Assembly: GCA_003220155.1 (NCBI GenBank)
Contig: QHRO01000248.1
Coordinates: 1 to 43,395 of the forward strand
DNA: 43,395 bases
DNA from: Verrucomicrobiota bacterium
GTDB lineage: Bacteria; Verrucomicrobiota; Verrucomicrobiia; Chthoniobacterales; UBA10450
Reading direction: 5' to 3'
Shown: positions 10,622 through 35,048 of the stretch, one piece after another
Position numbering within the stretch: the first letter of the stretch is position 1
How the letters are laid out: every line of letters starts with the position of its first letter
Made by a program: the position numbers and the translations under genes
Notes under the pieces: model-generated
What the model was told of the DNA's origin: nothing
The model's input: the letters and a program-made list of their open reading frames with translations, nothing else
The model's database searches: none

Positions 10622-11506
10622 ATGCCTAGACCCGTTTCCGTCCGCTCCGGTCAGGTTGAGTTTCTCAAACTCAATCTCGAAAAGAGGGAATGGCGCGATG
10701 CTTACCAATGGCTACTGGCTTTAACCTGGCCAGAGTTCGCCGCTCTCATCGCAGGCGTTTATATCGTCATCAACCTCGTCTTTGCAGAGTTCTACGCCCT
10801 CGGTGGCGAATGCATTGCCGGGATGACGCCCGGTTCTTACCTCGAGGCTTTCTTTTTCAGTGTGCAAACTCTCGCCACCGTCGGTTACGGCCATTGGTAT
10901 CCACAAACTCTTTACGGCCACCTCGTCACTACCGTCGAGATCATTAATGGCATGTTCGGCCTCGCGGTCATGACTGGCTTGATCTTTGTTCGCTTCTCCC
11001 GACCCGCCGCGCGAATTCTATTCAGCAAACCACTTGTCATCGGAACATTGAATGGGCGACCTACCCTGATGTTACGGGTGGGCAACTTGCGCGCGCAAAG
11101 TATGGTTGAAGCGGAGTTCAGAATCATGTTCACCCGTGATGAACCTATTCTTGAAGGTGACACCTTCAGACATTTCTATAATTTGAAACTGCATTTCGAC
11201 CGCCTTATTTCCTTTCCGGCTGCACTTACCCTTCGTCACACGATTGACAAGCAAAGCCCACTTTATGGCGAGACGCCGGAATCGTTTAGAGCAAGCAGAG
11301 CCTTATTCACCGCTTCGGTCGTCGGAATTGACCCCGTTATTCCCGCAGCGGTACAAACCCAAAAGGATTATAGCTGGCGCGACGTTCGTTTTGGCGAGCG
11401 CTTTGTCGAAATTTATAGCGAGTCAGGAGATCGAAAGCTTACGGTCGATTTCGGTCGCCTTCATGATACCGAACCGATGACTGAGCAGTCGGACTCACCG
11501 CAGTAG
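10622..11506 (+). CDS. Inward-rectifier potassium channel (KirBac type)
   Basis: The 294-residue protein shows the Kir architecture: a short cytoplasmic N-terminus with a slide-helix region (REWRDAYQWLLALTWPEF), outer helix at about 38-60, pore helix and selectivity filter TVGYG at 86-90 (SVQTLATVGYGHWYP), inner helix at about 100-125 (ETNGMFGLAVMTGLIFVRF-like segment with Gly hinge), and a C-terminal beta-rich cytoplasmic domain (about 130-280) with LMLRVGNLRAQSMVEAEF. Tetrameric K+ channels of this family allow K+ flux regulated by lipids or pH. The ATG at 10622 follows a T/C-rich stretch. The gene is probably on its own or co-transcribed with the following MFS gene 26 bp downstream. Confidence 0.94.
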   Translation: MPRPVSVRSGQVEFLKLNLEKREWRDAYQWLLALTWPEFAALIAGVYIVINLVFAEFYALGGECIAGMTPGSYLEAFFFSVQTLATVGYGHWYPQTLYGHLVTTVEIINGMFGLAVMTGLIFVRFSRPAARILFSKPLVIGTLNGRPTLMLRVGNLRAQSMVEAEFRIMFTRDEPILEGDTFRHFYNLKLHFDRLISFPAALTLRHTIDKQSPLYGETPESFRASRALFTASVVGIDPVIPAAVQTQKDYSWRDVRFGERFVEIYSESGDRKLTVDFGRLHDTEPMTEQSDSPQ

Positions 11507-19022: not shown

Positions 19023-21524
19023 ATGTTTGAATCATTTTTTCAGGATGTGCGGGTGGGGCTTCGTGTTTTGTTTAAGGAGAAATCCTTCTGCTTCCTAGCC
19101 GTGCTCGTGCTCGCACTGGGCATCGGCGGCGCGACTACTCAGTTCACAGTCGTCAACGCCACTGTATTACGCGGGTTTTCGTTTCCTTATCCAGAACAGC
19201 TGATGAGCGTGGGGTTGATCGATCCTCAGGCCAGTGCGCAAAATAATAATTTCGGTCTCGGCAACATCCCGACGGCTCAGGACTACGAGGACCTACGCGC
19301 GGCCCAGCAGTCGTTCGCGCAGATGGCCGGTTATTTGAGCGGATCGACAATCAACGTCACTTACAAAAACAATCCGCAGCGTTACACTGGCGCGTACATT
19401 ACCGAAGACCTCTTTAGGATTATCGGCGTTTCGCCGATAATGGGCCGCGACTTCACCGCCGACGACAACAAACCCGGTTCAGAAAAAGTCGCCATTTTAA
19501 GTCACGAGATTTGGAAGCGGGATTTCAATGGCGACCCCAACATTGTCGGGCAAAGCGTTCGGATTAATGGCAAGGCCGCGACCATCATCGGTGTGATGCC
19601 GCCGAATTTTAAATTTCCATTTTCCGACCAACTTTGGGTTCCCCTCTACAATGAGTTTCCTCCAATACCGCGCGGCCAACTCGTGATTGGTGCGAATAAT
19701 GCCGCACCCGCAGTCATGGGCCGGCTCAAACCGGGCGTCAGCATCGATCAGGTGAACGCGGAGTTTGTCGGCCTGGCGCGCCGGTTGGCTCAGGACAATC
19801 CGAAAACGAACAGCACTCTTACGTCCGCGAACGTGCAGCCCCTTTTGAAAGCGATGACCGGCCCGCAGCTGCGCCAGCAAGTTTGGGGGATGCTTGCCGC
19901 GGTCATCCTCGTTTTGCTGATCGCGTGTGTGAACGTGATGAATATGCAATTTGGTCGCGCCGCCTTGCGGGCAAAGGAACTGGCGATTCGTGGTGCGCTT
20001 GGCGCCACCCGTTGGCGAATCGTCCGCCAAATGCTGACTGAAAGTTTTGTTGTCGCGGCATTTGGCGCAGTCGCGGGCGTGTTGCTAGCCTATTGGGCGG
20101 TCGACCTGCTCATTCGGGCGACGAATTCGCTGCCGTTTCCGCCACCTTATTGGATTCAATATAGGATAGACGGCCCTGTTCTTGTCTTCACCGTCGCAAT
20201 CACGTTAGTGGCAACGATTGTTTCCGGTTTAGTTCCGGCGTTCGTCAGCTCGAAAGGCAATGCCGCGGAGATCATGAAAGAAGGCGGCCGCGGCAATAGC
20301 AGCCGGTTGGTCAATATCATCACTCGTGTGCTCGTGGTCGGGCAGATCGCGTTGACAGCGGCACTCCTGATTGCGGCCACGCTGCAAATCAAATCAATTC
20401 GAAATCAGGTCACGCTCAATTATGGCTACGACGAGAGTGCTATTTATACAGCGCGCATGGCCCTGATGGAAGGCGCTTATCCGACGCAGGACGCTCGTCG
20501 TGGATTTTTTCTTCGTGCAGTGCGGGCATTGCGAGCCAAACCGCAATTCGAATCTGTAGCGATGAGCGATCGCTTTCGCATGACCTTTGCCGGGCAAGGT
20601 CAATATGAAGTGGATGGTCAAAATTATACGACGGACCGCGATCGGCCACGGGGAAACTTCGAGTCGGTGTCGGATAACTATTTTGCAACGCTCGGTTTGA
20701 AGATTTTGGAAGGCCGTGATTTCACCATTGATGACAGCGATGCTAAACAACCGGTGGCGATCGTTAACGCGAGCTTCGCGCGAAAGTATTACAGTAACGA
20801 AAGTCCGATTGGGCGTCGGATCCGGATCTATAATCCCGGCCAACCGCAGCCGTGGCGCACGATTGTCGGAGTGGTTCCGGACACACTGATGCAGGGTCCA
20901 TTCGACCAGCAGACCGATACCGGCGGCTTTTACATGCCGCTCCTCGGCGCCGACCCCGCCACGCAATTTTGCACAATCATTGTTCGCCCGTGTCCGGGAC
21001 AGCGAGCCGATACCCTCGGTTCGGCCCTCAGCAGGGCAGTTGCCGAACTCGATTCAAATTTGCCGACTTATTTCGCCGGAACGCCAGCGCGCTTGCACGA
21101 TGAAATCCTCGGTGGCAACCGAATTATCGCCACCTTATTCGGCATTTTCGGAGCGGTCGCATTCGTGCTCTCGGCAGTTGGTCTTTACGGCGTGATGAGC
21201 TTTTCCGTTACTCAGCGGACGCAGGAATTTGGCATCCGGATGGCGCTGGGCGCGGATGCCGCTCGCATCTTTCGCATGGTCATGACGCAAGGCGCCTGGC
21301 AGTTGGGCATCGGGCTCGTTCTTGGCGCCGGCGGCGCCGCGCTGCTCCTAGGGGTTCTCGCGGCCGCTGCTTTGCAGAACATTCTCTTCAAGGTCAACAC
21401 GCTCGATCCGTTCATTTATTTCGCGGTTGCAGGAATGCTCGCTCTCGTCGCGGCGGCATCTTGTTTCGTTCCCGCACGCCGCGCCACTCTGGTCGATCCG
21501 ATCGTTGCTCTTCGCTATGAGTAA
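19023..21524 (+). CDS. ADOP-type ABC permease (MacB/FtsX family), first of three
   Basis: The 833-residue protein has the ADOP layout: N-terminal helix (about 18-42, FLAVLVLALGIGGATTQFTVV), a MacB_PCD periplasmic domain (about 50-260), then three-helix FtsX domain (about 285-420, LLIACVNVMNMQFGRAALRAKELAIRGALGA). A further helix near 435, a second MacB_PCD domain and a final FtsX domain follow (about 705-833, FGIRMALGADAARIF; end ARRATLVDPIVALRYE). Such proteins form the membrane half of MacB-like complexes that act mechanically on periplasmic substrates; an ATPase partner is not encoded nearby. The start is well supported by AGGAG at 19010-19014. The next paralogue starts 24 bp after its stop. 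Confidence 0.92.
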   Translation: MFESFFQDVRVGLRVLFKEKSFCFLAVLVLALGIGGATTQFTVVNATVLRGFSFPYPEQLMSVGLIDPQASAQNNNFGLGNIPTAQDYEDLRAAQQSFAQMAGYLSGSTINVTYKNNPQRYTGAYITEDLFRIIGVSPIMGRDFTADDNKPGSEKVAILSHEIWKRDFNGDPNIVGQSVRINGKAATIIGVMPPNFKFPFSDQLWVPLYNEFPPIPRGQLVIGANNAAPAVMGRLKPGVSIDQVNAEFVGLARRLAQDNPKTNSTLTSANVQPLLKAMTGPQLRQQVWGMLAAVILVLLIACVNVMNMQFGRAALRAKELAIRGALGATRWRIVRQMLTESFVVAAFGAVAGVLLAYWAVDLLIRATNSLPFPPPYWIQYRIDGPVLVFTVAITLVATIVSGLVPAFVSSKGNAAEIMKEGGRGNSSRLVNIITRVLVVGQIALTAALLIAATLQIKSIRNQVTLNYGYDESAIYTARMALMEGAYPTQDARRGFFLRAVRALRAKPQFESVAMSDRFRMTFAGQGQYEVDGQNYTTDRDRPRGNFESVSDNYFATLGLKILEGRDFTIDDSDAKQPVAIVNASFARKYYSNESPIGRRIRIYNPGQPQPWRTIVGVVPDTLMQGPFDQQTDTGGFYMPLLGADPATQFCTIIVRPCPGQRADTLGSALSRAVAELDSNLPTYFAGTPARLHDEILGGNRIIATLFGIFGAVAFVLSAVGLYGVMSFSVTQRTQEFGIRMALGADAARIFRMVMTQGAWQLGIGLVLGAGGAALLLGVLAAAALQNILFKVNTLDPFIYFAVAGMLALVAAASCFVPARRATLVDPIVALRYE

Positions 21525-21548
21525 AATTTGGTAAACAAAAGGCCGATC

Positions 21549-23972
21549 GTGTTCACCGATTTCCGTTTTGCACTTCGCCAGCTACGAAAATCTCCGGGCT
21601 TCACCTTACTTTCTGTCCTCACGCTTGCTCTCGGCATCGGTGTAAACACTGCAATTTTTAGCCTAATCCACGATCTCTTTCTGCGCGGTATGCCGTTCCA
21701 GGAAGTGTCTCGCATCGTGCGGATTTACGGTGAAGCAAAAGAGCGCGACCTGAAGCAACTGCCGTTCTCGGTTCCGAAGTTTTGGCATTACCGCGACGGC
21801 CAAAACGTTTTTGCCAGTTTCGCCGCCGATTGGGGGAATGGTTACATCCTGACCGGACTCGGTGAGCCGGTCCAGGTTCTCGGCGAAAATGTCACCGCTA
21901 ACTACTTCGATTTATTAGGCATTCATCCGATTGCCGGCCGCAACTTCCTTCAGCAGGAGGAAATGAGGGACAACGTCGCCTTGGTCACGGAAAGTTTCTG
22001 GCGCAAGCGCCTCAATTCCGATCCGGCCGCACTCGGCCGCAGCATTGCATTGAACGGCGTCGCCACCACGATTGTTGGAGTTTTGCCTAACCTTCCAATC
22101 TCGTGGTTCGGTCGTGATTCCGAAGTCTTTATCGCCACGCCGTTTGATAATCCGAACGCGACGAAGGATCGACTGATGCGCGGTTTCAGTTTTATGCGTT
22201 GCATCGGACGACTGAAACCTGGAGTAACGATTCAGCAGGCGCAGGCCGCGATGCCTTCTCTCGAGCAAAGTTATCGCGCACAACATCCGGAAACAGCAGA
22301 TTGCACCTGGACGTCGACGGTAATTAGCGCTGACGAAGACGTCACGGGCGATCTACGACCCGCGTTTGTCACCTTGCTCATTGCCGTCGGTGCGGTCCTG
22401 CTTATCGCATGCAGCAATGTTGCAAATCTTTTGCTCGTTCGTTTCAGCGGGCGCCGACGTGAAATCGCGTTACGAATGGCTTTGGGAGCCGAGCGGCGCA
22501 ACGTCGTCCGACTGTTCGTGCTCGAAAGTACCATCATCAGCGTGGCTGCCGGCGGGGTCGGCCTGGCCCTCGCACTTTGGATCGTGTCAGTGGTTCCGAA
22601 AGTCGCGGGCGACAACGTTCCACTTGAAACCGCGGTCACGCTTCATTGGCCAGTCCTTTTTTTCACACTTGCCCTTTCCTTGTTGACTGGATTCGCCATG
22701 GGAGTTTATCCCGCATGGCAAGGTTCCCGCGCTGACCTCGTCGATGGATTGAAAGAAGGTGGCCGCGCCATCAGCGGCAGTCGCGGGCAACATCGATTCC
22801 GCCGCGGACTCGTCTCGGCACAAGTTGCTCTTTCAATGGTGTTACTCGCTGCAGCGGCGATGCTAATCTCAAGTTTCGTTAGACTAAGTAATCAGGAAAG
22901 TGGATTCCGGTCGGATCATGTTTGGGCTGGCGGAATCGGTTTACCCGCCGCGCGATATCCGGATCCCACATCGCGCGGTCATTTCGTTCAACGTTTGGTT
23001 GACGAGCTGCAAGCATCGCCCGGCGTTGAAGCAGCGGCCGCTGCTGACGCGGTCCCGTTGAGCGGCAATTATTCTCAAACTCCGTACATGCGCGCGGATG
23101 GCAATCCATTGCCGGTAAATCAGCGCCCGCTCGGTTTAACACGCAGTATTTCGCCAGCATATTTCCGCGCGTTGCGCGTCCCGTTGCTCGCCGGTCGCGA
23201 ATTTAATGAACGGGACGGAGCCGATCAGCCGCTCGTCGTTATCTTGAGTAATTCGACCGCTAAGAAGTTATTTCCGAACGAAAATCCGCTTGGCCGGCAA
23301 ATCCTCTTTGGAGTCGATAACGGCAATGGGCTTCCCGCCGTAGTGGTGGGCGTCGTCGGCGATGTTCGATCGCGCGAACTCGCCAAGCCCAACGATATCG
23401 AATTCTACCGCCCGTGGCCGCAGCGGAGCGTTTCGTTTTTCAACGTGATGGTGCGCACGCCTATGAAACCGGACGCAACTCAGACCATTGTTCGCGCCGC
23501 GCTCGACAAGATCGATAAAGACACGCCGATTCTGCAACCAGATACGCTCGATGCCATTGTGACCCAATCATTGGGACAGCGGCGGCTGACCATGGGATTG
23601 CTCGGCGCATTTGCCGGCATCGCCTTGCTCCTCGCGATCGTTGGAATTTACGGCGCCGTTGCCTACACCGTGGAACAACGAACCGCCGAAATCGGTGTGC
23701 GCATGGCCCTTGGTGCGCAAGTCAAAGATGTTTTGCAGCTCGTTGTCAAACAAGGGATGAATCCCGTATTGATCGGACTTGGCGTAGGTCTGATTGCGGT
23801 CTTCGCGACTGGCCGTTTGCTCGCGACGCAACTCTACCAAATTTCTCCACACAATCCGGTTCTAGTTAGCCTGACCGCAATCGGGCTGGCCTTTGCCGCG
23901 CTCCTTGCCTGTTTAATTCCCGCGCGACGGGCAACCGCGATCGATCCCATCCAGGCTCTTCGCAGCGAATAA
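21549..23972 (+). CDS. ADOP-type ABC permease (MacB/FtsX family), second of three
   Basis: This protein of about 807 residues begins FTDFRFALRQLRKSPGFTLL. I use the GTG at 21549, preceded by AAAAGG, because it aligns with the start of the third gene (MTDLRFALRQLLKSPGFTSL); a TTG at 21528 is possible. It has MacB_PCD domains and two FtsX domains with NVANLLLVRFSGRRREIALRMALGA, ARRATAIDPIQALRSE and PAWQGSRADLVDGLKEGGR. It is much closer to the third gene than to the first, indicating a local duplication. Probably in one operon with both. No ATPase domain. Cargo unknown. Confidence 0.92.
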   Translation: MFTDFRFALRQLRKSPGFTLLSVLTLALGIGVNTAIFSLIHDLFLRGMPFQEVSRIVRIYGEAKERDLKQLPFSVPKFWHYRDGQNVFASFAADWGNGYILTGLGEPVQVLGENVTANYFDLLGIHPIAGRNFLQQEEMRDNVALVTESFWRKRLNSDPAALGRSIALNGVATTIVGVLPNLPISWFGRDSEVFIATPFDNPNATKDRLMRGFSFMRCIGRLKPGVTIQQAQAAMPSLEQSYRAQHPETADCTWTSTVISADEDVTGDLRPAFVTLLIAVGAVLLIACSNVANLLLVRFSGRRREIALRMALGAERRNVVRLFVLESTIISVAAGGVGLALALWIVSVVPKVAGDNVPLETAVTLHWPVLFFTLALSLLTGFAMGVYPAWQGSRADLVDGLKEGGRAISGSRGQHRFRRGLVSAQVALSMVLLAAAAMLISSFVRLSNQESGFRSDHVWAGGIGLPAARYPDPTSRGHFVQRLVDELQASPGVEAAAAADAVPLSGNYSQTPYMRADGNPLPVNQRPLGLTRSISPAYFRALRVPLLAGREFNERDGADQPLVVILSNSTAKKLFPNENPLGRQILFGVDNGNGLPAVVVGVVGDVRSRELAKPNDIEFYRPWPQRSVSFFNVMVRTPMKPDATQTIVRAALDKIDKDTPILQPDTLDAIVTQSLGQRRLTMGLLGAFAGIALLLAIVGIYGAVAYTVEQRTAEIGVRMALGAQVKDVLQLVVKQGMNPVLIGLGVGLIAVFATGRLLATQLYQISPHNPVLVSLTAIGLAFAALLACLIPARRATAIDPIQALRSE

Positions 23973-24009
23973 CCGTGCTCTTCGTTATGACCAAAACCGG
24001 CCGTTATTT

Positions 24010-26433
24010 ATGATGACCGATCTCCGCTTCGCCCTTCGGCAATTACTCAAGTCGCCCGGGTTTACTTCGCTGGCGTTGCTCACGCTCGCCCTTGGGATTG
24101 GACTGAACACTGCGATCTTTAGCCTGATCAACGACCTGTTTTTGCGCGGTCTCCAATTTAAGGAGCCCGGACGCGTCGTGCACATGTATTCGAATGCCAG
24201 GCAGCGCAATTTGCTGGAGCTCGCTGTCTCGGTACCGCGGTTTCAACATTTCCGCGCCAGCCAGAAAATTTTTGACGGGTTCGAGGGCGAAAATATCATC
24301 CCGTTCACTTTGACCGGACTGGGCGATGCGGTGCAGCTTTTCGGCGGCAAGGTGACGTCGAACTATTTCGACGTCCTCGGCGTACAACCGATACGCGGCC
24401 GCAATTTTTTGCCCGAGGAAGAAGAGACCGCCGACGTGGCGATGGTGACGGAAAATTTCTGGCAGAAACGGATGGGCGGCGACCCGAATGTGATCGGCCG
24501 CAGCATTACGCTCGACGGCGTGCCGCACACCATCGTGGGCGTGTTGCCGAACCTGCCGTTTTCCTGGATCGGACCGAATGCTGAGATCTGGACGACGAAA
24601 CCGTTCGTGGTTCCCGGACTTTCCTACGAACGAATCATGCGGGGCAGCGGTTTCCTACGCGTGATCGGGCGCTTGAAACCGGGGATGACGATCGAACAGG
24701 CGCGGGCCGCGTTACCGCCGCTCGAGCAAAGTTATCGCGCCCAATATCCGGACAAGATCGACAGTTCATCGGTCATGACGCTCAAGACGCTGCCTGAGGA
24801 CGTGACGGGAAACCTGCGGCCAGCCTTTGCCACTTTGCTCGCGGCAGTTGCGTTCGTATTGCTGATTGCGTGCAGCAATGTGGCAAATCTCCTGCTCGTA
24901 CGCTTTAGCGGCCGGCGGCGAGAAATTGCACTGCGCATGGCGTTGGGCGCGTCACGCGCGAGCGTGTTGCGACTTTTCATTTTCGAAAGTTTGCTCGTAA
25001 GCGTTCTTGCTGGAGCAGTCGGCGCAGGCTTGGCATATGAGTTGGTTCCGTTCGTGCCGAAAATGGCGGCGAATTTTCTTCCCCTCGATCCCGAGACTAG
25101 CATCAGCCTCTCGCTTCCCGTGCTCGGGTTCACCATTCTTCTGTCGCTCTTAACGGGCGTGGCGATGGGCGTTTATCCGGCATTGCAAAGTTCACGAGCT
25201 GATCTGGTCGAAGGATTGAAAGAAGGCGGACGCGGAACGAGCGGCAGCATGCAGCAGCACCGGTTCCGTAAAATCTTGGTCGGCGCGCAAGTCGCGCTCT
25301 CTGTCACGTTGCTGGCGGGCGCGGCGTTACTCATCACCAGCTTCGTGAAGTTGAGCAAGCAGAACATCGGGTTCCGCCCCGAGAATATGTGGACTGGCCT
25401 GGTGACATTGCCGCAAGCGGCCTATCCCGATTCCGCCACGCGCCAGCGTTTCGTGGAAAAAACTCTGGCGGCGTTGCAGCGGATTCCAACGATCCAAAGC
25501 GCCACGATCAGTGGCGATATCCCGTTGATCGCTGCTGCCGCCGCTAACATGCTTTACACCCGCCCGGACGGTGAAATTTTGCCGGTGGATAAGCGGGCCG
25601 CCGCCGCGGGCCACGATATTGCGCCGGGTTATTTCAAGACCTTCGGCATTCCCATCCTGGCGGGACGCGATATCGATCAGCACGACGCAGCCGATCATCA
25701 GAATGTGATGCTAATCAGCCAGGCCGGCGCGCGGAAAGTTTTTGGCAACGAGAATCCGATCGACAAAACGCTTCTGATCTCGAGTGCGAGCACGCCGGTG
25801 GAGATCATCGGTGTGGTGGGCGACGTGCGGATGCGGCGCATAGCGGACCCGGACGAAGTGGAAATCTACCGTCCGTGGGCACAGGAGAATTTTCCGTTCG
25901 CGGTGATCGCGGTGCGGAGCGCGCTGAGAGAGGATGCGGTGACTAGAGTGGTGCAGTCGGCGCTCGGCACGGTCGATCCTGGGTTGGCGGTCGCGATTCC
26001 GCAATCGATGGACGCCATTGTCGCGCAAGCGCTCGGCCAGGCGCGGCTGATGACGTGGCTGTTGGGAATTTTTGCCGGTGCGGCCTTGCTATTGGCGACG
26101 GTTGGAATTTACGGTGCAGTTGCTTATACAGTCGAGCAACGCACCTGCGAAATTGGCGTGCGCATGGCGCTCGGTGCACAAACCAAGGACATCTTGCGAT
26201 TAATTGTAAATCAGGGAATGCGGCCGGTCGTACTCGGATTGGTTATCGGCTTGGCCGCGGCGTTAGCGCTCGGCCGTTTAATCACGTCGCAACTTTATCA
26301 AACTTCCGCTAACAATCCTCTGTTACTCGCGGCAACGATGTCGATCCTCGGACTTGCGGCGCTGGTTGCTTGTGTTTTTCCCGCACGCCGGGCAGCGATG
26401 CTCGATCCGGTGCAAGCATTGCGCACGGAATAA
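24010..26433 (+). CDS. ADOP-type ABC permease (MacB/FtsX family), third of three
   Basis: The 807-residue protein has the same domain order as its neighbour and near-identical landmark segments: FALRQLLKSPGFTSL, NVANLLLVRFSGRRREIALR, SSRADLVEGLKEGGRG, GIYGAVAYTVEQRTCEIGVR and the end ARRAAMLDPVQALRTE. It therefore arose by tandem duplication of the second gene, from which it is 37 bp away. The first codons are two ATGs at 24010 and 24013. The final gene of the three-gene run, it converges on the APC permease. Family known for macrolide export and lipoprotein-type work; no substrate evidence here. Confidence 0.92.
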   Translation: MMTDLRFALRQLLKSPGFTSLALLTLALGIGLNTAIFSLINDLFLRGLQFKEPGRVVHMYSNARQRNLLELAVSVPRFQHFRASQKIFDGFEGENIIPFTLTGLGDAVQLFGGKVTSNYFDVLGVQPIRGRNFLPEEEETADVAMVTENFWQKRMGGDPNVIGRSITLDGVPHTIVGVLPNLPFSWIGPNAEIWTTKPFVVPGLSYERIMRGSGFLRVIGRLKPGMTIEQARAALPPLEQSYRAQYPDKIDSSSVMTLKTLPEDVTGNLRPAFATLLAAVAFVLLIACSNVANLLLVRFSGRRREIALRMALGASRASVLRLFIFESLLVSVLAGAVGAGLAYELVPFVPKMAANFLPLDPETSISLSLPVLGFTILLSLLTGVAMGVYPALQSSRADLVEGLKEGGRGTSGSMQQHRFRKILVGAQVALSVTLLAGAALLITSFVKLSKQNIGFRPENMWTGLVTLPQAAYPDSATRQRFVEKTLAALQRIPTIQSATISGDIPLIAAAAANMLYTRPDGEILPVDKRAAAAGHDIAPGYFKTFGIPILAGRDIDQHDAADHQNVMLISQAGARKVFGNENPIDKTLLISSASTPVEIIGVVGDVRMRRIADPDEVEIYRPWAQENFPFAVIAVRSALREDAVTRVVQSALGTVDPGLAVAIPQSMDAIVAQALGQARLMTWLLGIFAGAALLLATVGIYGAVAYTVEQRTCEIGVRMALGAQTKDILRLIVNQGMRPVVLGLVIGLAAALALGRLITSQLYQTSANNPLLLAATMSILGLAALVACVFPARRAAMLDPVQALRTE

Positions 26434-30728: not shown

Positions 30729-33266
30729 ATGAGCGCCTGGAAATTTCTTTTGATCGCGCTGGCGGTCATCACTCTGCTTTGGTTCCTCAATCCCGAACGT
30801 ACGATCAAACGTAACGAGCCCGGCATAGTCGAAATCGTTTATCTGGCGGAGAGCGGGCCGGATACAGCGTCGGTCGAAGAAGCAATGCGCGAGTTCGAAG
30901 CCCAAAGCCGCGCTGCTCATCAAGAAAATCCATCGCACCCAATTTACAAAATTATCAAAGGCCAGACCGCCTCGCGTGATCCGACCGCCGATCCAACCCG
31001 TTTTCTCGTTAGTCTGGCGGGGGGAATGCCCCCCGACTTGATCCTCTTCGATCGTTACGCCGTGAGCGAATGGGCGGCACGCGGCACCTTCACCAAACTG
31101 GACGAATTCGTTGCCCGCGAATCCTCGAGCCCTGCGCCCGACGCAATTCGCCCGGAAAATTTCTACAAGTCATGCTGGGACGAAGTTGTTTATGAAAATC
31201 CTACCACCCACGAGCGCGGCATTTACGGAATCCCGGAGCACGTCGATGATCGCGCGCTTTTTTACAATAAGGATCTATTGAAGCGAGCCGGCTTTGTCGA
31301 CGCAAACGGGGAAGCGCAGCCGCCCCGCACTTGGGATGAGCTCGAGCGAATGGCGGTCAAATTAACCGAACACGACGCCCGCGGACGCATTACCCAGCTT
31401 GGCTTCGCGCCCAATTTCGGCAACGCCTGGCTTTATCTTTACAGTTGGATGAACGGCGGGCAGTTCCTGAGCGACGATCGCCGCCGCTGCACCTTGAACT
31501 CTCCGGCCGTGGTGCGGGCCCTGGAGTGGATGACACGAGTCTATGATTCGTTAGGCGGCGCCCAAAAGGAATTCGCTTTTGAAGGAACGGCACAGTCCGG
31601 GCAACGAAGCGCTCCGCCTGGTGAGCTCGATCTTTTTGTCCAAGGCAAGGTGGCAATGAAGGTCGACGGCTACTGGATTTTTCCAGAAATGCTCGCGCAA
31701 TACGGCCAAAACTTGAACTACGCGGTCACCCTTCCGCCATTGCCCGCCAGTGCCGCTGGCAGGGAGAACAATGGACACAGTTGGGTAAGCGGTTGGTGTT
31801 ACGCCGTTCCTTCCACCGCGCGACAAAAAGAAGGCGCGTGGGAATTGCTCAAGTTCATGTGCAGTCAGCACGCACGTGAAATCATCGGCGAAAACGAGCG
31901 GCTCCGACTGCAAAGCATCGGGCGCATTTATGTGCCGACGCAAAACGCAAACCGGCGTATCAACGAATGGGCTTTCCAAAAATATATCGCATCCGATCCA
32001 GCCATCCCCGCCAAACTTCGCGATGGCGTTAAACTGCTAAACGATTTGATCGACACTTCGCCTTTCCGGCCAGTAACGCCGGTCGGTCAATTGCTTTTCA
32101 ACGAACAGAAGCGCGCGACTGAGAACGCGATCTTCCACAAAATGTCCGCTCAGGAAGCGCTGAATGAAAGCACGGCAGTGGTGCAGAGTGCCCTCGATCG
32201 AGTGCTTAGTCCGCCGCCGGGCGCGGTTGTGCCGTCGAAGTATTTTTTGGTTGTCTACTTCTCGTTAATAACCGCGGCTGCCATAGGAATTTACCTCTGG
32301 GAGACGCGAATGGGCTTTCCTCCTGCTAATGCTCTTACGCATGCTCGAAAGAAGGGAATCGAGCAGGAGCAGGAAACAGGTGGGACTCGCGCCGGCTATT
32401 TCCGCTCGCAATGGGCCGGTGGTTGGCTCTGCGCCTCGCCGTGGATTATCGGTTTTATCCTCTTCACCGGCGGCCCGATTCTCTTCGCCATCGTCGTCAG
32501 CTTCGCCGATTACGACATTCTGAATCCCGCGCGCTTTGTCGGCCTGGCAAACTATCGCTGGATGTTTACGCGCGACCCGCTGTTTTGGAAGGTGCTTGGT
32601 AATACCCTCTACATGATCATCGGTATTCCACTCGGCATGGCACTAAGTCTGGCCATCGCTCTTCTGCTCAACCTTGAAGTGCGCGGGGTCGCGGTCTGGC
32701 GCACGTTTTTTTATCTGCCGTCAATCGTACCGGCAGTAGCTTCCAGTATTTTGTGGATTTGGATTTTTAATCCGCGAATCGGACTACTTAATAATGTGCT
32801 CGCTGCTTTCGGCGTTCACGGACCTAACTGGTTGCAAGACGAACACACCAGCAAGATCGCGCTGATTTTGATGGGACTTTGGTCGGCCGGCGGCGGGATG
32901 ATCATCTGGCTGGCCGGACTCAAAGGAATTAGCCCGAGCTACTATGAAGCGGCCGCGCTCGATGGCGCGAATGCCTGGCAACGCTTTCGTACCATCACCC
33001 TGCCGTTACTCACTCCCTACATTTTCTTCAATCTCATCATGGGTTTGATTGCTACCCTGCAAATCTTCACCCAGTCATTCATCATGACTCAAGGCGGCCC
33101 GATCGATTCCACTCTCTTTTACGCCTACCATCTTTTTAACAACGCGTTCCGTTTTCTACAGATGGGCTATGCCAGTGCGCTTGGTTGGTTTCTTTTTCTA
33201 GCAGTTTTCACGCTGACGCTACTTCAATTGAAACTATCGAAACGATGGGTACACTATGAGGAGTGA
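30729..33266 (+). CDS. Sugar-type ABC importer: solute-binding protein fused to MalF-like permease
   Basis: The 845-residue protein joins two normally separate parts. Residues 4-21 form an uncleaved-looking membrane anchor; about 33-480 form an extracellular solute-binding domain of the sugar family (GGMPPDLILFDRYAVSEWAARGTFTKLDE, GIPEHVDDRALFYNKDLLKRAGF, TWDELERMAVKLT, GKVAMKVDGYWIF). A helix at about 504-524 then crosses back, a charged linker (525-560) follows, and a complete MalF-type permease begins (562-845, six helices). The ATPase-contacting EAA loop is at about 739-763 (YYEAAALDGANAWQRFRTITLPLL). Topology is consistent: binding domain outside, linker and EAA loop inside. AGGAAAG lies just before the ATG. 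The MalG-type partner follows at 33435. No ATPase gene is adjacent, so a shared one is needed. Sugar specificity is unknown. Confidence 0.9.
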   Translation: MSAWKFLLIALAVITLLWFLNPERTIKRNEPGIVEIVYLAESGPDTASVEEAMREFEAQSRAAHQENPSHPIYKIIKGQTASRDPTADPTRFLVSLAGGMPPDLILFDRYAVSEWAARGTFTKLDEFVARESSSPAPDAIRPENFYKSCWDEVVYENPTTHERGIYGIPEHVDDRALFYNKDLLKRAGFVDANGEAQPPRTWDELERMAVKLTEHDARGRITQLGFAPNFGNAWLYLYSWMNGGQFLSDDRRRCTLNSPAVVRALEWMTRVYDSLGGAQKEFAFEGTAQSGQRSAPPGELDLFVQGKVAMKVDGYWIFPEMLAQYGQNLNYAVTLPPLPASAAGRENNGHSWVSGWCYAVPSTARQKEGAWELLKFMCSQHAREIIGENERLRLQSIGRIYVPTQNANRRINEWAFQKYIASDPAIPAKLRDGVKLLNDLIDTSPFRPVTPVGQLLFNEQKRATENAIFHKMSAQEALNESTAVVQSALDRVLSPPPGAVVPSKYFLVVYFSLITAAAIGIYLWETRMGFPPANALTHARKKGIEQEQETGGTRAGYFRSQWAGGWLCASPWIIGFILFTGGPILFAIVVSFADYDILNPARFVGLANYRWMFTRDPLFWKVLGNTLYMIIGIPLGMALSLAIALLLNLEVRGVAVWRTFFYLPSIVPAVASSILWIWIFNPRIGLLNNVLAAFGVHGPNWLQDEHTSKIALILMGLWSAGGGMIIWLAGLKGISPSYYEAAALDGANAWQRFRTITLPLLTPYIFFNLIMGLIATLQIFTQSFIMTQGGPIDSTLFYAYHLFNNAFRFLQMGYASALGWFLFLAVFTLTLLQLKLSKRWVHYEE

Positions 33267-33282
33267 TGAAGCATTAGCTCGA

Positions 33283-33410
33283 GGTAGCGCACGCGTCTCG
33301 CGTGCTGGTTACGGGGTCTCGCTGCACCAAACTTCACTTCGTGCTGCACGGGTTGAAAAGTCCGCCATGGCGGGAACGCCATCGCCAGCACGCGAGACGC
33401 GGGCGCTACC
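33283..33410. repeat. Long inverted repeat inside the importer operon (GCGCACGCGTCTCGCGTG family)
   Basis: Arms 33283-33308 and 33385-33410 (26 bp, one mismatch; left arm begins GGTAGCGCACGCGTCTCGCG) enclose about 76 bp. Related elements are at 36408-36495 and 37573-37704, with a degenerate one at 12738-12800. This copy separates the fusion gene from the MalG-type gene and could form a strong hairpin in the shared transcript. Confidence 0.85.
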
Positions 33411-33434
33411 CGGAGAGATTCGCACCGCAAGTAT

Positions 33435-35048
33435 ATGATGCGTCGTCTCCTCATCTACGTTTTGTTAATTGCCGGTTCGCTCTTGTTCGCCTGGCCGTTC
33501 ATCTGGATGGCTGGAACCTCAGTCAAGCTCGAACGCGAAGTGCTTTCCAATCGCGCACGCGCCTTCCCCGAGCGCCCAATTCCGCGAGTGAAATCACCTT
33601 ACCTCGACGACCGGCTGTTTTCGCAAGTAACCGGACCGCATCGCGACAAAGCAATCGCCATTATCGAAGAACAAATTCGCGGTCATTTCTCGCCATCGGA
33701 CGTCAACAATGAAGCCGCGCGCGAACAAATTGCGCGCGGGATTTACGAGCGTTTGCTTGGTTCAATTCCGTACGAACGCTGGAGCGAATCGGCCGATCAA
33801 GTACGCGCCACAATAGCTGGCGCGATCACACCGGAATTAATCGATAGCGTCCTCGCAGAATTACGCCGTGCCTTCACCATTGGACAACTCCGCGCGCGTT
33901 CCACCGGCCTCGAAGAAGATCAACTGGTTGCGGCAAAAGAAGTGAAATGGAACGTCACCGGTCCGGCGAAGTTAGCACAGCAACCCGACTTTGCCGAACT
34001 GCGCTACGATTTCTCTTCGGGCGATATCATCACTTTGTCGCGAACTCTTACAACTTCATTTCCAGTCGAACATTTGCGTCGCCTGCAACTGTATTTCCGC
34101 CCGGACGACACCTGGCACGCGTTACGGCTGACGGTAGAGAAACTCGGTCGCCGTTTTGTAGCTGAACGAGCCATTTACCTGGCAGATCACGACTGGCAGA
34201 TTGCAACCTGGCAGGGACCGAGCGCAGACGACTCGCTTACAAAAATCAAAACCTGGACGCTACTGAAGGATGCGGGAAAATCGGAGGTTCGCGGCCCGAA
34301 TGAAGTTAGGATTACGCTGGAACTAGATCGCACCAGCGCGCTTGGCGCGTGGCTGGCAAAAATTTGGCGCAACTATCGCCTCACCCTCGATTACATTCCA
34401 TTTTGGCGTTACGTCGGCACCGGTCTATTTCTCGTTATATTGAATCTAATTGGCACGCTCTTCAGCTGCTCGCTCGCCGCTTATGCTTTCGCCCGTCTGT
34501 ACTGGCCTGGCCGCGGTATCTGCTTTGCCGCCTTGCTCGGCACCATGATGATTCCGGTGCAAGTTACGATGATTCCGCAGTTCCTGATCATGCAAAAACT
34601 TGGCTGGTACAACACGCTTAAGCCGCTTTGGGTGATGAGTTTTTTTGGCTCCGCCTTTAGCATTTTTCTCCTGCGCCAATTTCTCAAAGGCGTTCCCCGC
34701 GACTTGGAAGATGCCGCGCGTCTAGATGGCTGCGGTTTTCTCCGCATCTACTGGCATATTATGCTGCCGTTGGTACGTCCAACCCTTGCCGTGATCGCCA
34801 TTTTTACTTTCCTCGCGACCTGGAACGATTTCATGGGGCCGCTCATCTACCTGAGCGATCAACGGCTCTATCCCCTCTCTTTCGGCCTTTACGCCTTCCA
34901 GATTCAATCGCTCCAGCCTGGCACCAACGCCGGCATCGGCATGTTAATGGCCGGCTCACTCTTGATGATGCTGCCGGTAATCGCAATCTTCTTCTTCGCC
35001 CAACGCTACTTCCTCCAAGGCGTCACGTTGACTGGGATGAAAGGCTAG
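33435..35048 (+). CDS. MalG-like ABC permease with a large periplasmic insert
   Basis: The 537-residue protein has a first helix at about 5-27, then a hydrophilic region at about 36-315, and then five helices forming a normal MalG-type permease core (about 325-537). The EAA loop is DLEDAARLDGCGFLRIYWHIMLPLV (421-445 region) and the end is FFAQRYFLQGVTLTGMKG, both typical of carbohydrate permeases of about 280 residues. The insert therefore doubles the protein and must lie in the periplasm between helices 1 and 2. It contains a helical half (about 65-170) and a probably beta-rich half (about 170-300, VKWNVTGPAKLAQQPDFAELRYDF, LQLYFRPDDTWHALRLTVEKL in short). It should pair with the fused MalF-type protein upstream. 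Function of the insert is unknown. Confidence 0.88.
   Translation: MMRRLLIYVLLIAGSLLFAWPFIWMAGTSVKLEREVLSNRARAFPERPIPRVKSPYLDDRLFSQVTGPHRDKAIAIIEEQIRGHFSPSDVNNEAAREQIARGIYERLLGSIPYERWSESADQVRATIAGAITPELIDSVLAELRRAFTIGQLRARSTGLEEDQLVAAKEVKWNVTGPAKLAQQPDFAELRYDFSSGDIITLSRTLTTSFPVEHLRRLQLYFRPDDTWHALRLTVEKLGRRFVAERAIYLADHDWQIATWQGPSADDSLTKIKTWTLLKDAGKSEVRGPNEVRITLELDRTSALGAWLAKIWRNYRLTLDYIPFWRYVGTGLFLVILNLIGTLFSCSLAAYAFARLYWPGRGICFAALLGTMMIPVQVTMIPQFLIMQKLGWYNTLKPLWVMSFFGSAFSIFLLRQFLKGVPRDLEDAARLDGCGFLRIYWHIMLPLVRPTLAVIAIFTFLATWNDFMGPLIYLSDQRLYPLSFGLYAFQIQSLQPGTNAGIGMLMAGSLLMMLPVIAIFFFAQRYFLQGVTLTGMKG

Follow-up and report, generated by a model that had tools for sequence, protein, structure and literature searches.

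A predicted extracytoplasmic domain on the MalG-type subunit of sugar importers with a binding protein fused to MalF

Introduction

How binding proteins locate, bind and leave their transporters has long been studied, usually in systems where they diffuse freely. The locus described here raises a related question: when the binding protein is already tethered to one permease subunit of a MalF/MalG-type sugar importer, what is a large additional domain on the other subunit, how did it come to be there and what might it do? The locus lies in a Verrucomicrobiota bacterium (Chthoniobacterales, UBA10450; GenBank assembly GCA_003220155.1), in positions 1 to 43,395 of contig QHRO01000248.1; this whole stretch of 43,395 nucleotides is what we call the window. 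An earlier note on it had singled out a MalG-type permease with an insert of roughly 280 residues between its first two helices, present only in the partner of a fused binding protein, and had proposed that the two extra domains may face each other outside the membrane as a docking or gating device. Each ingredient has precedents: importers of this type are known, as are fusions of binding proteins and permeases with a large outside domain on one subunit. In the titles and abstracts of the open-licence papers that our searches listed we found no description of this MalG-borne insert, of the fused pair or of the one-way link between insert and fusion.

A MalG-type permease with a large TM1-TM2 loop

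The gene in question (33435..35048, + strand; recognized by ORF call, Pfam and an AlphaFold2 model) encodes a 537-aa permease, whose sole Pfam match is BPD_transp_1 (residues 347-530, E 2.6e-15; 57.1 bits against a curated cut-off of 26.4). Its TM1 (residues 2-30, 33438..33524, +) is a helix in the AlphaFold2 model that aligns with TM1 of MalG, and residues 312-537 (34368..35045, +) form the MalG core on the evidence of both sequence and structural matches: AlgM2, SugB and MalG are the top PDB sequence matches of this core, and the 537-aa model shares the solved MalG fold (3puv_G with Z 17.7, rmsd 3.6 and 261 aligned; 4tqv_B with Z 17.8, rmsd 3.5 and 265 aligned, a tie, as are all Z differences within 1). 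Within the core, EDAARLDG...LP at residues 425-445 aligns with E. coli MalG, and we take it to be the EAA-type cytoplasmic coupling motif. The permease reaches neither the NCBIfam equivalog cut-off for MalG (maltose; 74.4 versus 261) nor that for UgpE (glycerol-3-phosphate; 99.7 versus 297).

Aligning four MalG proteins that bear the insert (one of them from the window) with four lacking it (among them the fused relatives L184 and L186) and E. coli MalG places a net extra stretch of about 253 aa in the TM1-TM2 loop, starting at about residue 51 and ending at about 303 (33585..34343, +). The earlier figure of roughly 280 residues holds for the whole loop, there being 280 residues in the window's protein from aligned position 40 to the MalG core, but overstates the net insertion. 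The same TM1-to-core segment spans 202-417 residues in insert-bearing ORFs, a range that rests on 63 rows of which some are duplicate records of one gene, and 15-29 residues in 11 of the 12 ORFs without the insert. ORF, Pfam, alignment and AlphaFold2 model thus agree with the note on a MalG-type permease with a big insert in this loop. Chance or an assembly artefact was ruled out, since the same insert occurs in intact ORFs of many assemblies, aligns across 57 sequences, is under purifying selection and has a fold predicted with high pLDDT: the insert-bearing MalG family is real. MalG has its N-terminus inside, and by homology the insert is predicted to be placed on the outer face of the membrane.

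In a MalG accompanied by a separate binding protein (L038:5081-6331) this segment is 126 residues long, and the TM1-TM2 loop holds another, unrelated insert of roughly 100 residues. This suggests that the loop is possibly a repeated site of independent domain gain.

The partner subunit fused to its binding protein

The other importer gene (30729..33266, +; identified by Pfam, AlphaFold2 mean pLDDT 82.3) encodes 845 aa, in which SBP_bac_1 (residues 92-379, E 7e-26) and BPD_transp_1 (residues 637-839, E 7.9e-13) are found in one ORF, bearing out the earlier description of the insert's partner as a fused binding protein. The chain begins with a hydrophobic stretch modeled as a helix (residues 3-19, 30735..30785, +), which is a likely membrane anchor, followed by the binding-protein domain (residues 30-495, 30816..32213, +; Pfam and Foldseek). 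A further AlphaFold2 helix (residues 503-526, 32235..32306, +) would return the chain through the membrane from the binding protein to the MalF-type permease part (residues 556-845, 32394..33263, +; BPD_transp_1 and AlphaFold2); the model of this part shows no large extra domain among the helices from residue 556, and hence nothing like the P2 domain of E. coli MalF. The top Foldseek matches of the binding-protein domain are oligosaccharide-binding proteins, with CpMnBP1 bound to mannobiose at E 2e-20. The gap of about 170 bases between the two genes holds an inverted repeat found by repeat search (33278..33415, +), whose two 40-nt arms are 83% complementary and whose core motif was not found elsewhere in the window.

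Predicted structure of the insert and domain searches

The AlphaFold2 model of the 537-aa permease, built with a 57-row alignment, has a mean pLDDT of 88.4 and a pTM of 0.82; in ten-residue blocks the insert is mostly at 90-98, with the lowest at about 80. The insert is modeled as a helical module (residues 70-143, 33642..33863, +), with helices at 70-81, 92-110, 113-116, 120-130 and 133-143, and a beta module of twelve strands (residues 147-298, 33873..34328, +), after which a helix at 302-320 leads into TM2. The slice with the beta module measures 155-200 residues in all 57 aligned members, and that with the helical module 89-215 residues in 56 of the 57; the exception, L033, has 17. The residues invariant in the 57-sequence alignment, D224, W227 and G238, sit in loops or turns of the model.

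Domain searches returned little. There is no Pfam family in the window's insert (residues 35-315), and Pfam searches with 13 inserts and 49 beta modules gave scattered matches, in one or two members each, at a best E of 0.011. A PDB profile search with the insert gave nothing meaningful (helicase loader/replication protein P at E 0.74-0.98), and one with the beta modules retrieved no PDB sequence at E values up to 10. The VIA-align match list was filled by permeases and hence uninformative on the fold of the insert. A catalogued domain was accordingly ruled out, the Pfam and PDB profile searches being empty or noise, and the note's check for a known common domain came back without one. Judged by these sequence searches, the insert is an uncatalogued domain family of about 250 residues.

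Distribution and co-occurrence with the fusion

Of 58 genomes screened as relatives, 8 carry insert-bearing genes, the window's own being one. Wider sampling found such genes in 14 of 387 genomes for the window's phylum, in 6 of 294 for a phylum represented by a genome with the label Phycisphaerales and in 29 of 68 for one represented by a genome labelled Hydrogenedentes; assemblies of Verrucomicrobia, Kiritimatiellae, Spartobacteria and Phycisphaerales are among the insert-bearing records. One match in the window's phylum (G416, E 9e-5) was ruled out, its ORF being a DUF445 protein without a permease domain, which brought the count from 15 to 14 of 387. We counted 63 distinct loci after dropping 14 duplicate records or fragments (L039, L045-L049, L051, L056, L058, L061, L066, L094, L095, L203). 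Among those dropped, L039/L048 (G008) is a true insert locus cut at a contig start, with the fused gene on another contig; an insert place at G794:C560 was also left out of the locus set.

The fused binding protein-MalF gene adjoins the insert-bearing MalG at 54 of the 63 loci. At three more the MalF ORF is cut by a contig end (L055, L157, L169), one locus is frame-broken (L031) and one stands at a contig edge (L178); the four without an adjoining fused gene (L033, L102, L173, L174) belong to genomes that carry one elsewhere (G168, G007, G775, G776). A separate binding protein was found at none of the 63. In the window's phylum the full fusion junction occurs in 15 of 387 genomes, 14 of which are the 14 insert genomes, and in the fifteenth (G345) the contig ends just after TM1 of MalG. 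The Hydrogenedentes phylum gave another outcome: it has 51 full-length junction places, many of which adjoin plain MalG, and eight fused genes lack an adjoining MalG despite at least 0.9 kb downstream (L191-L194, L197, L198, L201, L202). The relation is thus one-way: the insert implies the fusion, and the fusion does not imply the insert. What stood of the claimed restriction to fused-partner systems is that, contig ends excepted, the insert is found only in genomes with the fused gene; two-way co-occurrence was ruled out by the fused genes with an ordinary MalG.

The insert-bearing MalG genes of L031, L035 and L062 are interrupted by a stop or frame shift, through decay or assembly error. A MalG of the window's genus (L033:6989-8365) is without nearly all of the helical module, and its fused partner lies elsewhere, at contig ends. 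L043:1593-5006 (1138 aa) and L044:5471-7771 (767 aa) each encode a MalF-like and a MalG-like half as a single protein; in L043 the first 490 residues have no Pfam match.

Order of acquisition

To order the two events we used a FastTree phylogeny of the joined MalF and MalG cores with 81 rows, rooted by choice on a Sphaerobacteraceae row and a Thermomicrobiales row. Rows with short MalF or MalG parts (L031, L032, L035, L062, L105, L157) were dropped, as was L133, which is the same place as L067. All 49 insert rows form a single clade (support 0.935); two of them, L055 and L169, are labelled unfused in the tree solely because their contigs end inside the gene. The sister of the insert clade comprises four fused pairs without the insert (joint clade support 0.965), and both nest in a 60-row fused clade (support 0.977). 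Fifteen fused pairs with plain MalG entered the tree, and four fused pairs fall outside the large fused clade, among genes with separate binding proteins, where support is weak. Fusion probably arose more than once, as far as this topology indicates, and the simplest order is fusion first and insert second, with the insert gained once, in a lineage whose binding protein was fused before. Shared ancestry by itself would keep the two features together in a clade, so their co-inheritance is weak evidence for contact between the two extra domains.

Selection on the insert

Comparison of the window with L032, with the MalG core covered over 91 codons, gave dN/dS of about 0.23 for the helical module and 0.16 for the beta module, against 0.04 for both the MalG core and MalF and 0.07 for the binding-protein domain; the insert exceeds the MalG core about four- to fivefold, these ratios being rough since dS is higher in the insert (1.0-1.2) than in the core (0.3). 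In the fused subunit, the linker region evolves faster than the insert does (dN 0.312, dS 1.017). By these estimates the insert is under purifying selection, yet among the faster-evolving parts of the importer. Relative to close relatives, synonymous divergence across the insert (33585-34343) is about two to four times that across the core (34368-35045).

Comparison with known importers

The nearest parallel is E. coli MalFGK2-E, where one permease subunit of a MalF/MalG importer likewise bears a large extracytoplasmic domain, P2. PMC3150292 gives MalF P2 about 180 residues (91-271), fewer than the insert has, and reports, from molecular dynamics of the E. coli importer, that MalF and MalG both hold the binding protein and that P2 moves with it. 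The two systems differ in that P2 is on MalF, whereas the insert is on the MalG-type subunit, in what is predicted to be its first outside loop. E. coli, moreover, has a free binding protein, whereas that of the window's importer is tethered. HHalign of the insert with E. coli MalF P2 returned probabilities of 0.6% and 0.2% with a single P2 sequence; as this comparison shows no relation between the two, the note's suggestion that the insert could be an independent solution to P2, placed on the other subunit, is a fair idea.

In terms of the core, the closest solved relatives by both sequence and structure are LpqY-SugABC (SugB, trehalose) and AlgM2 (alginate), systems in which the binding protein is separate from the permease chain; the SugB and AlgM2 chains are 274-305 residues long and thus lack a comparable insert. 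Tethering has its own parallels in GlnPQ and OpuA, which belong to other importer families and in which the binding protein is likewise tethered to the permease. In the present importer the tether runs instead to a sugar permease of the MalF type, and the other subunit has acquired a domain of its own. That binding proteins can be fused to the transport domain is mentioned in PMC8276074.

Possible roles of the insert

The locus encodes a two-gene MalF/MalG-type sugar importer, in which one subunit bears the binding protein on its N-terminus, held by two putative membrane helices, and the other a domain of about 250 residues predicted to face outside, composed of a helical module and a beta sandwich, in the first outside loop. 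The insert would then stand above the MalG half of the pore, where the binding protein must dock. We tentatively favor, with somewhat less than even confidence, a role for it as an outside accessory domain: a fixed extracytoplasmic partner that, through a contact we infer, would orient the tethered binding protein or steady its docked state at the pore mouth, such that the sugar is handed to the pore. On MalG it would play the role that the apparently unrelated P2 plays on E. coli MalF. The fuller historical proposal, namely that after tethering to MalF the MalG subunit gained once a new extracytoplasmic domain as a fixed partner holding the binding protein or its sugar at the pore, a P2 analogue on the opposite subunit, is possible but on the unlikely side. 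The tether alone does not create a need for the insert, given the fifteen fused pairs with plain MalG in the tree, and a precise docking surface on the helical module is doubtful in light of the elevated dN/dS of the insert and the near absence of that module in L033.

The main rival explanation, which we also regard as possible yet rather unlikely, is that the beta module binds glycans, like the domains at the front of GH50 agarases, keeps oligosaccharide close to the mouth of the pore and passes it to the tethered binding protein, with no docking of that protein involved. It draws on the Foldseek search with the whole permease model, where the sole non-permeases among the best 50 matches listed are two chains of PfGH50B, a GH50 agarase (PDB 6xj9; E 7.9e-4 and 9.8e-4). 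These matches span 143-167 columns, close to the length of the beta module, and on that basis the resemblance, at its best E, is probably between that module and the N-terminal beta-sandwich region of PfGH50B, although Foldseek reports no residue range and this assignment is hence indirect. The GH50 agarases Aga50D and AgWH50C are described in PMC11079163 as having N-terminal carbohydrate-binding modules, and the nearest folds of the importer's own binding protein bind oligosaccharides. However, PfGH50B is an enzyme and not a transporter, with no sequence relation to the insert found, and none of the 49 beta modules matched a carbohydrate-binding Pfam family among those listed at E up to 1, just as none found a PDB sequence. 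Beta sandwiches are, moreover, common and the fold does not show the function, while the invariant D224, W227 and G238, lying in loops or turns, could be structural. The docking partner and sugar-holding roles may both be true together.

An alternative that we consider quite improbable is that the partner of the insert is neither the binding protein nor sugar but, for instance, another transporter, the cell wall or an outer-membrane channel, and that this positions the importer within the envelope. Double membranes are generally attributed to these phyla, and a fast-evolving insert whose helical slice varies so widely in length would be in keeping with such partners; but no third gene is conserved beside the importer pair. 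Least probable of all, and very much so, is that the insert is a tolerated passenger without a role in transport that is being lost in some lineages: the L033 gene, with hardly any helical module and no fused partner beside it, the broken frames in several assemblies and a dN/dS several times that of the core are as it would predict, but the frames are possibly assembly errors, the beta module is kept in every aligned member and the dN/dS is well below 1.

Returning to the insert as fixed partner of the tethered binding protein, the related genes form a series, from a separate binding protein through a fused one with plain MalG to a fused one with the insert. With such a series, the effect of the tether can be tested, as can the idea that tethering makes a further outside domain useful. 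If true, the proposal would furnish a step-by-step example of an importer with a free binding protein becoming a two-armed machine. An uncatalogued domain family of under-studied phyla also gains an address and a context.

The probable ATPase and neighboring genes

No MalK lies next to the importer pair in the window. The window's genome (G000) has one ATPase with the MalK-type OB_MalK and TOBE_2 domains, on contig C315, which exceeds the UgpC subfamily cut-off (490.2 versus 432). Homologues of at least 57% identity are present in 16 of the 21 genomes examined, the window's own included, and a seventeenth has a cut one at 75%; G763 has one at 45% alone, and G012 has the importer with no ATPase match at the threshold. 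A shared UgpC/MalK-type ATPase encoded elsewhere probably powers the importer.

At L212:2489-6462 the ATPase with the MalK-type TOBE domain adjoins a small ORF that by eye is regulator-like and a GlgE gene, and two relatives (L214, L215) share this arrangement, a hint of a connection to alpha-glucan or trehalose. Across 20 ATPase loci (L213-L232), GlgE is in the flanks, which are short, of three, all from the window's family; being absent at the other 17, this neighborhood was set aside as evidence on the substrate. Beside the importer pair itself, no glycoside hydrolase is conserved among the insert loci, and, leaving aside a cluster (14 loci) made up mainly of antisense or overlapping frames, the genes most widely shared there besides the pair occur in at most 7 of the 63 loci.

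Elsewhere in the window are a gene for an inward-rectifier-type potassium channel (10622-11506; IRK_C, E 7.8e-17) and three successive + strand ORFs of 833, 814 and 807 aa (19023-26433), which are possibly tandem paralogues.
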